NCBI RefSeq assembly: GCF_013177315.1
Contig: NZ_CP053661.1
Coordinates: forward strand, 5,332,001-5,396,000
Source: Thermoleptolyngbya sichuanensis A183
GTDB lineage: Bacteria; Cyanobacteriota; Cyanobacteriia; Elainellales; Elainellaceae
Length of the DNA: 64,000 nt
Direction of reading: 5' to 3'
The notes beneath the pieces were generated by a model. The model was not told the DNA's origin. It searched no databases and saw only the letters and a program-made list of their open reading frames with translations. Positions 35,011 to 36,914 of this stretch are shown piece after piece (the first letter of the stretch is position 1; each line of letters starts with the position of its first letter). Position numbers and translations under genes: made by a program.

Positions 35011-35199
35011 ATGCTGACTGCCAACTTATTAATCCTGTTTGTTGCGCTGCCAGCGCTCGTTAGCACTCTGGCTGATGCAAATCTAACCTCGACTTCCTTC
35101 TCTCGGTCGGTTTATGGCCAAGTGGCAACGAGCACTACGCCCCCTGCTGGCGATCAGTTCCACCGAGGCAGCGGACGTTGCACGACGACTTGCTCCTGA
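35011..35199 (+). CDS. patX: PatX-like precursor of an RGSGR morphogen peptide
   Basis: A 62-residue ORF on the same strand as hetR and about 0.8 kb upstream. Residues 4-23 (ANLLILFVALPALVSTLADA) look like a signal peptide. A polar linker follows, and HRGSGR occupies residues 51-56 (RGSGR at 35164-35178), six residues from the end, then CTTTCS. RGSGR is the pentapeptide of PatS and HetN that binds HetR and blocks heterocyst formation. PatX, described by Elhai and Khudyakov, is a secreted RGSGR protein encoded beside hetR in many filamentous cyanobacteria. Position, size, signal peptide and motif all agree. Most gene callers would miss it. Confidence 0.82.
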   Translation: MLTANLLILFVALPALVSTLADANLTSTSFSRSVYGQVATSTTPPAGDQFHRGSGRCTTTCS

Positions 35200-35429
35200 T
35201 CAGCCCTGCCTTGCTTGCCGCTAGAACCTTGAGAAGCCTCACCTGCTCATGCAACCGTTTAAGCAACCGAATCGCCCGAAAACGAAATCCTGAACACTGA
35301 ATTGCCCGAAAACTAAATATCTGAATATAGCGATATCGCATCACTCCCTGCCAACCTCTAGCGCACCAGCCTCTAACCAGCGCCCCAGCCAATTTCCGGA
35401 CGGCTCGTGGCAAAAATTCCGCCAAAACT

Positions 35430-35462
35430 CGGCAAATATCCGGCAAATATCCGGCAAATGCC
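35430..35462. repeat. 11-bp tandem repeat, three copies (CGGCAAATATC)
   Basis: Copies at 35430-35440 and 35441-35451 are identical; 35452-35462 ends GCC. It is located in the hetR leader. Confidence 0.85.
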
Positions 35463-35730
35463 CGGTGAATCGCTCAGGAAACGCCTGGTATAACAAAACC
35501 AGGTTTGTTCGCCCAAACGCAGTTTGTCAAATCAGTAGTTTGTCAAATCAGCAGAAATCATTCTCCTGTACAAAACATTCCGATTAGCAACCGTCTATAA
35601 GCCCTGAAACTACGGTTTCCAAGTTTACGAAGCGAAAGTTCGCCGATTTGCCCCAAAATTTTGACCCAGGCTCAGCCGGGATTGGGCGATCGCCCGACCG
35701 TTTGACCAGACCGTTTGAAAGGAGATCTGC

Positions 35731-35772
35731 CACCTGTCTGATTCCATCTGTCTGATTTCACCTGTCTGATTG
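35731..35772. repeat. 14-15-bp tandem repeat, three copies (CACCTGTCTGATT)
   Basis: Three near-identical CACCTGTCTGATT/CCATCTGTCTGATT units lie in the hetR leader, about 240 bp before the start codon. Confidence 0.8.
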
Positions 35773-35935
35773 ACGAATCGGCTGTTCGCAGGGGAACCTG
35801 TGGAGCGGCGATCGCCACCCGTTTGCAAGATTGCCTGCACGACTTGCAAACCTTGCAGCCTCCAGCCTTAGACCCGCTAAAGCTCTGTTCAGAATTTGGC
35901 GATATGGTTTAAGCTAGGGGTATTTTCGGAAGGAT

Positions 35936-35955
35936 TGTACGTTGCCAATCGTACA
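35936..35955. promoter_or_regulatory. Inverted repeat TGTACG-N8-CGTACA upstream of hetR
   Basis: A perfect 6+8+6 palindrome ends 50 bp before the hetR ATG, in the core promoter or 5' UTR. It does not fit the NtcA spacing. It may be an operator for HetR itself or another dimeric regulator. Confidence 0.45.
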
Positions 35956-36005
35956 GTCTGCAATCATTCTGATACCCACTTATTGCAACGGCTCTTCCTA
36001 ACAAG

Positions 36006-36914
36006 ATGACTACTGATTTGGATCTGATCAAGCGCCTGAGTCCGAGTGCGATGGATCAGATCATGCTCTACCTGGCATTTAGCGCAATGCGGACGGGCGG
36101 ACATCGCCACGGTGCATTTCTAGACGCAGCGGCCACCGCCGCCAAGTGCGCGATTTATATGACCTACTTAGAGCAGGATCAAAACCTGCGGATGACGGGG
36201 CATTTGCACCACATCGAACCCAAGCGGGTGAAGGTTATTGTCGAAGAGGTGCGTCAGGCCCTCACCGAAGGCAAGCTGCTGAAGATGCTGGGTTCTCAGG
36301 AGCCGCGCTACTTGATCCAGTTGCCCTACGTGTGGATGGAGCAGTTTCCCTGGCAGCCAGGGCGATCGCGCATTGCGGGCAGCAGCCTGACGATGGAAGA
36401 AAAGCGCCAGATCGAAGAGAAACTGCCGCCCAACCTGCCCGACGCGCAGTTGATCAACTCGTTCCAGTTCATGGACATCATCGAGTTTCTGCACGAGCGA
36501 TCGCAGGAAGACCTGCCCGAAGACCGCCGCCTGCCTATGAGCGAAGCGCTGTCTGAGCATATCAAGCGCCGCCTGCTCTACTCCGGTACGGTGACGCGGG
36601 TAGATTCGCCGTGGGGAATGCCGTTCTACGCGCTCACTCGCGCCTTCTATTCGCCGGCCGACCGCGAAGAGCGCACCTACATCATGGTGGAAGACACTGC
36701 CCGCTACTTCCGCCTGATGCGCGACTGGGCCGAGTATCAGCCCCGCGTATTGCGAGTGTTGGAAGAGTTGGACATTCCTGAAGACCGCATTGAAGACGCG
36801 CTAACCGATCTGGATCAGGTGCTACGGGAATGGGGCGATCGCTACCACAGAGAGGGCGGTGTCCCCTTCGTCGTGCAAATGGCCGTCGGCCCCAAGGACG
36901 AAGAGGAATCGTAA
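36006..36914 (+). CDS. hetR: Heterocyst/pattern regulator HetR
   Basis: This 302-residue protein is nearly collinear with Anabaena HetR (299). Residues of known importance are kept at the same numbers: Cys48, Ser152 and Ser179, and Arg223, Glu254 and Asp256, which line the PatS/RGSGR-binding surface. The N-terminal DNA-binding unit begins [20 protein letters not shown]. HetR is a DNA-binding master regulator of differentiation, and it is also present in many filamentous species without heterocysts, where its role is less defined. An RGSGR-peptide gene lies upstream. The region after it is AT-rich and has no clear terminator. Confidence 0.97.

Follow-up and report, generated by a model that had tools for sequence, protein, structure and literature searches.

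Background

PatX together with HetR has been reported in filamentous cyanobacteria whether or not they form heterocysts (PMC7761841; PMC12756182; PMC11298460). In Nostoc, PatX is exported and PatP is required for its maturation, the need for export and the signal peptide being documented, the latter by MBP fusions, and the hexapeptide HRGTGR (PatX6) binds HetR with a KD of 88 nM, frees it from DNA, and blocks its binding to DNA (PMC12756182). In Anabaena, DIF1 at the -35 position drives patS, patX, and hetR in a hetZ-dependent manner (PMC7377430; PMC6133370). The non-heterocystous Leptolyngbya sp. BL0902 has been studied by deletion of patX, of hetR, and of both, and the effects of PatX were reported to be basically independent of HetR (PMC11298460). 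Here we describe a patX gene upstream of hetR in the 64-kb stretch of DNA that was analysed (the window) and compare it with these systems.

Results and discussion

A patX gene upstream of hetR

An initial annotation of the window described a 62-residue ORF with a signal-peptide-like start and HRGSGR, about 0.8 kb upstream of hetR and on the same strand, and took it to be patX-like. The ORF is there, on the + strand at 35011..35199. It has an ATG start codon and 62 codons, it encodes the protein MLTANLLILFVALPALVSTLADANLTSTSFSRSVYGQVATSTTPPAGDQFHRGSGRCTTTCS, and its stop is separated by 806 bp from the start of hetR at 36006, also on the + strand. HRGSGR, the presumed HetR-inhibitor hexapeptide, is encoded on the + strand at 35161..35178 with RGSGR from 35164, and RGSGR makes up residues 52-56 of the 62, in the C-terminal part of the product. 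The patX-like identity was right. The ORF has the RGSGR, the hydrophobic N-terminus, the DIF1-like box, and the proximity to hetR that go with PatX. The window copy is patX, a new member of a published family, and only its tail is unusual.

The ORF is under coding constraint. Against the homologue from the same genus (locus L039) dN/dS is 0.10, which is an approximate value because dS, at 1.89, is near saturation, and dN/dS is below 1 in all of the 15 pairs compared, which are partly non-independent, with a range of 0.10-0.57. In the HRGSGR codons the window and L039 differ by two synonymous changes and by no amino acid change. Over the six frames of the window RG[ST]GR is found in three frames in all, patX included, and the other two have stop-to-stop lengths of 122 and 5 codons. 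The RGSGR in the patX ORF is poorly accounted for by chance. Scans of the ORF with Pfam and NCBIfam gave no family match, no clear Shine-Dalgarno sequence was seen ahead of patX, and a first pattern search of the genome, with 266 matches, was too loose to be helpful. The 62-codon ORF is a real gene, patX. The spacer between patX and hetR is 604 bp in the locus of the same genus versus 806 bp in the window, where a short tandem repeat of cggcaaatatc units was spotted by eye at 35430-35465.

Two claims of the initial annotation went too far. That gene callers would discard the ORF is overstated because patX of BL0902 carries a locus tag (PMC11298460), and the implied novelty of an exported precursor with hetR in the absence of heterocysts had been anticipated in print (PMC7761841; PMC12756182; PMC11298460). 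Since patX-hetR in non-heterocystous filaments was already published, the claimed surprise was mostly known.

HetR and its peptide pocket

The hetR gene is on the + strand at 36006..36914. It scores 568 bits with the NCBIfam model NF009718 against a cut-off of 489, it is the sole HetR match in the genome, and its product matches solved HetR chains at 1.7e-162. C48, S152, S179, R223, E254, and D256, which the initial annotation listed as kept, were all found, and E253, D270, D278, R62, H69, E71, K73, R74, and K76 are kept as well. Among the HetR contacts of PatS6 in the Anabaena structure are E253, D270, and D278 (PMC4649674). The Arg223 codon is at 36672..36674 on the + strand, and in the Anabaena structure this residue is near the free C-terminus of PatS6. 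The codons for Glu253-Glu254-Leu255-Asp256 are at 36762..36773 on the + strand, and PatS6 contacts E253, E254, and D256. Thus every PatS6-contact residue that was checked is intact. The closest HetR among the named loci listed, from which records very near the window may be absent, is that of the MAG Cyanobacteria bacterium J069, which is 97% identical, and other near hetR loci bear names such as Leptolyngbyaceae, Oculatella, and Leptolyngbya.

Nitrogen fixation and heterocysts

The genome (G000) has 5,525,100 bases in a single contig. In one stretch of it (L146, G000:C1:2772000-2791000) a scan of nine out of its 38 listed ORFs found nifB, nifS, nifU, nifH, nifD, and nifK together with a NifX-associated gene and a fused nifEN, the fused gene matching the bifunctional NifEN model at 1361 bits. 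A relative carries, at G013:C203:9548-11086, a second NifD-type gene above the nifD cut-off, with 667.7 bits. The HetP family (NF037966) has no match in G000. When 12 genomes were searched for this family ten matched, namely, those of the heterocystous genera Nostoc, Calothrix, Dolichospermum, and Dulcicalothrix (4/4), those of family f32 (4/4), and the relatives G003 and G013, while G000 and G022 did not. The absence of HetP is supportive only, because the relatives G003 and G013 match and G022 does not. The organism is probably a diazotroph that does not form heterocysts.

Linkage of patX to hetR and to an oxidoreductase gene

A HetR match was found in 85 of 146 related genomes. We retrieved 100 hetR loci, each with as much as 2.5 kb of its upstream sequence, and the window brings the set to 101 loci from 85 genomes; hetR matches of 238.6 bits or less were excluded unless they were inside a fetched stretch. 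Upstream of these 101 loci (238,779 bp) RG[ST]GR occurs in 69 frames on the strand of hetR versus 1 on the opposite strand, and at 67 loci a same-strand candidate is within 1.5 kb of hetR. The initial annotation had set down two checks in advance, homologues with RGSGR at this position and coding constraint on the ORF, and both speak for its reading. As to the first, a patX candidate bearing the promoter box described below is near hetR in 63 of the 85 hetR genomes and elsewhere in 3 more. In 22 of the 85 a box-bearing candidate is absent within 2.5 kb of a fetched hetR, in several of them because little upstream sequence was available.

In a scan of named genomes, 80 of 312 hetR loci were kept, 29 of which have the same hetR start as loci of the first set, and RG[ST]GR frames numbered 43 on the same strand versus 3 on the opposite strand. 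Thirty-seven of the 80 loci are without a same-strand frame within 1.5 kb upstream, five of these having less than 1.5 kb of sequence. By title, Nostocales account for 27 of these 37 loci and for none of the 43 with a frame, and therefore close patX-hetR linkage is, in this sample, a trait of the other side. The Nostocales genera concerned are known as heterocyst formers. Several loci titled Leptolyngbya or Leptolyngbyaceae carry patX candidates, so that patX looks more widespread there than the published survey suggests.

The upstream neighbour of patX, on the + strand at 33119..34978, is a gene for an FAD-dependent oxidoreductase (PF12831), whose product matches Pfam at 1.2e-79 from profile position 26. 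The first ATG, GTG, or TTG of this ORF is the GTG at 33200. Since the Rossmann motif VLVVGGGTGGTAAA is in frame and 5' of this GTG, the CTG at 33119 is a possible start of the gene. The in-frame CTG is also present in L039. An oxidoreductase homologue ends less than 400 bp 5' of patX at 23 of 63 loci, which belong to several families, and one precedes patX in all three loci away from hetR (L247, L248, and L249). It is absent from every fetched hetR locus that lacks a patX candidate. We read the linkage of the oxidoreductase to patX as old, and as often lost because 40 of the 63 loci do not have the oxidoreductase within 400 bp.

Proposed function of patX

What the sequence shows directly is the patX gene, its coding constraint, its promoter box, the hydrophobic start of its product, and a HetR pocket that is intact. 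We consider it very likely that the patX product, probably exported by Sec, gives rise to the HetR inhibitor HRGSGR, and that a DIF1-type promoter of its own, upstream of hetR, drives the gene. For all the steps that follow translation we infer from Nostoc what would happen in this organism. PatX would be exported, probably by Sec, and a PatP-like peptidase would cut it down to the hexapeptide; the hexapeptide would travel along the filament, bind to the hood domain of HetR, and free HetR from DNA. By the same analogy PatX and HetR would be ligand and receptor. In the tail-bearing peptide, HRGSGRCTTTCS, CTTTCS would have to be removed before HetR could be bound because, in the Anabaena structure, Arg223 adjoins the carboxylate at the free C-terminus of the peptide. 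As the genome has nif genes and no match to the HetP family, what the pair holds in check is probably not heterocysts but another state that is patterned or driven by HetR. Necridia are a published proposal for such a state.

The strongest competing explanation is that, in this lineage without heterocysts, the patX product acts mainly on something other than HetR. The deletion study of BL0902 is the only one on a non-heterocystous strain that we found and it counts against simple inhibition of HetR: by transcriptome, in the two informative groups of genes, the double mutant was reported to be like the patX mutant and contrary to the hetR mutant (PMC11298460). It also accords with such a target that in three genomes patX follows the FAD oxidoreductase gene and is not beside hetR. 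On the other hand, the HetR peptide pocket is fully kept in this genome and in 63 of the 85 hetR genomes patX sits a short distance ahead of hetR, and we therefore regard a mainly HetR-independent action as unlikely.

Promoter and leader

The box TCCTGA is on the + strand at 34951..34956, 54 nt before the patX ATG and within the oxidoreductase ORF at its 3' end, and it is DIF1 (TCCGGA) with one base changed. The 2018 paper that defined PatX reportedly found its N-terminus to be hydrophobic and every patX gene to have a DIF1 motif at most about 69 nt upstream; in the window the box at 54 nt is within that distance and one base off TCCGGA. Following the box at 34973..35002 is a -10-like CCGTAAC and then an imperfect dyad (+ strand; alignment A1), and the layout conserved in this alignment is TCCTGA, about 18 nt, GTA(A/T)C, and TAG. 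In 63 of the 67 candidates TCCTGA is 49-63 nt ahead of an in-frame ATG, a range that is partly imposed because start codons were picked 40-75 nt from the box. The clustering at 54-56 nt owes nothing to this choice. The box is missing at the standard spacing in L106, L108, and L119, which adjoin extra copies of hetR in G007, G043, and G024, respectively, and in L132, which belongs to G055.

A promoter profile built from sequence only (R1) hits the home genome nowhere but at patX, with 1.5e-12. Eleven hetR genomes without an adjacent candidate were searched with it, and in each of them scoring was confined to the top 150 first-look candidates. R1 found RGSGR genes away from hetR in G013 (9.8e-6) and G057 (0.001), and a weak match (0.19) in G126 leads to an RGSGR gene whose box is TCCGGA; in the other eight of the 11 (G075, G143, G135, G117, G054, G070, G096, and G038) the whole-genome search gave nothing convincing. 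In ten genomes without hetR the best value was 0.014 and none was below 0.01. The promoter profile and the oxidoreductase linkage helped to locate patX where it lies away from hetR. A canonical TCCGGA 611 bp before hetR in the window was set aside as an element because among the other 62 loci only two spacers have one and at other distances. The HetR site GGGN5CCC does not occur in the patX-hetR spacer of the window and was found in this spacer at 3 of the 63 loci overall.

The dyad reads CCGTAWCAG..CTGATACGG in relatives, and the window copy is partial (6/10). In many relatives there is an inverted repeat between the TCCTGA box and the patX ATG, and this raises the question whether the conserved leader acts as an RNA hairpin that controls the translation of patX. 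The dyad does better than shuffled 3' halves (0/1000 as good) and over the 63 loci the arms of the repeat pair better than swapped arms (0/5000). When each genus was represented by a single locus (n=31, all having the GTAWC/T element in place) 362 of 5000 swaps between genera were as good, and since the effect is gone in this sample the match of the arms over 63 loci is probably due to shared ancestry. A search of Rfam with positions 34900-36100 was negative up to E=1. Moreover, DIF1 boxes are reported to lie about 35 nt ahead of the transcript start, so the RNA would start inside the repeat (PMC7377430). From these alignments what the repeat conserves around the -10 region is a DNA consensus, and RNA-stem covariation is not supported; a hairpin that controls translation is very improbable. 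Least credible of all is that the ORF is untranslated, with the conserved element serving only as promoter or leader of hetR and the RGSGR there by chance, for although the 60 nt preceding the ATG are strongly conserved and neither a clear Shine-Dalgarno sequence nor a Pfam or NCBIfam family match was seen, dN/dS below 1 in every pair argues for translation, RG[ST]GR recurs though most of the PatX protein diverges, and a hydrophobic start is present in 43 of the 63 candidates.

The N-terminus and variant forms of PatX

The hydrophobic N-terminus of PatX, a putative Sec signal peptide by its hydropathy, is encoded at 35011..35079 on the + strand. Its maximum 12-residue hydropathy is 3.06, which at most 1 of 300 shuffles equalled. 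Basic residues are absent ahead of the hydrophobic core, and cleavage of the signal peptide after ADA, at residue 23, is possible. By class limits of 1.9 and 1.5, which were our own choice, the N-terminal 12-residue hydropathy of the 63 candidates is at least 1.9 in 43, 1.5-1.9 in 11, and below 1.5 in 9. The candidates with weaker hydropathy include short PatX forms of the genera g3, g5, g8, g11, and g14, and their weak N-termini suggest that export may have been lost in some lineages. L096 of g5 has a value of 2.02, above the other g5 rows.

Short PatX forms of 26-36 aa with the box and RGSGR were seen in L082, L094, L097, and L137 (g5), in L042, L043, and L047, and in L046. Their hydropathy is 0.72-1.88, apparently with no clear export signal, and in the HetR tree they do not all fall on the same branch. 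Precursors with several copies of RG(S/T)GR were also observed: L098 and L101 have three copies each, L099, L104, L105, and L239 four each, and L124 two. Precursors of the L098 type, with 2-4 copies, resemble multi-copy pheromone precursors. In L119 (G024) a 13-aa ORF, MKPQSTDGRGSGR, is found 202 bp upstream of the additional hetR copy and without TCCTGA; it is PatS-like and beside a hetR paralogue.

The two-cysteine tail

The tail CTTTCS, with its two cysteines, is encoded at 35179..35196 on the + strand and is also found in close relatives. A two-Cys tail right after RGSGR is present in the window, L039, L040, L041, L063, L070, L074, and L248, with three or four residues between the cysteines (C-x3/4-C). 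A single Cys 4-6 residues past the motif is present in L044, L045, L049, L051, L065, L068, L078, L093, and L100. In a HetR tree the genera with two-Cys tails g1, g21, g4, and g16 cluster with support of 88/91; in a tree of 39 rows g1, g21, and g4 cluster at 94/94, and the placement of g16 and g13 is unsupported. Constraining the eight two-Cys rows together was not rejected (p-AU 0.70), the group having been chosen for this test after the first tree was seen. By these trees the carriers of the tail are compatible with one clade.

A tie between the two-Cys tail and nitrogen fixation was considered and rejected because the carriers do not track nifD: it is above the cut-off in G000, G013, and G022 and not in G001, G004, G016, G021, and G029, of which G001, G021, and G029 are 69-85% complete. 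A disulfide formed in the tail outside the cytosol might hinder the release of the free C-terminal Arg required by HetR, in which case the redox state would govern maturation and, through it, the activity of HetR; we consider this quite improbable. Among the titles and abstracts listed, none reports a two-Cys tail or the oxidoreductase-patX linkage, and the 2018 PatX paper may describe either. The tail classes of PatX are natural variants suited to tests of maturation.

Comparison with known systems

PatX of Anabaena/Nostoc PCC 7120 and PatX of the window are alike in being a small precursor with an exported N-terminus, a His before RG(S/T)GR, and a DIF1-type promoter. Compared by description, Nostoc PatX has HRGTGR and is processed by PatP, whereas the window has RGSGR and not RGTGR and, unlike Nostoc PatX, a two-Cys tail. 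The box is TCCGGA in Nostoc and TCCTGA in the window, and this genome, unlike Nostoc, is without a HetP-family match. PatS, of 17 aa, is an inhibitor of HetR with RGSGR, as here, but it has no signal sequence, whereas the window precursor has 62 aa, a hydrophobic start, and a tail past RGSGR. PatS is defined as a very short peptide with RGSGR at its end, and the ORF falls outside this definition. HetN carries RGSGR (PMC7761841), as does PatX of the window. In size HetN is unlike a short secreted precursor, being a larger protein.

There is also a likeness to Leptolyngbya sp. BL0902, which is non-heterocystous and has patX directly upstream of hetR (GFS31_32390-32400) with a predicted DIF1 promoter (PMC11298460). 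Compared by description, BL0902 has no nif genes and three hetR-like ORFs, whereas this genome has nif genes and one HetR match. The role of patX and hetR in filaments without heterocysts has been called a mystery in print (PMC11298460), and this genome, with the two genes adjacent, nif genes, no HetP match, and one HetR, is a clean place to study that role.
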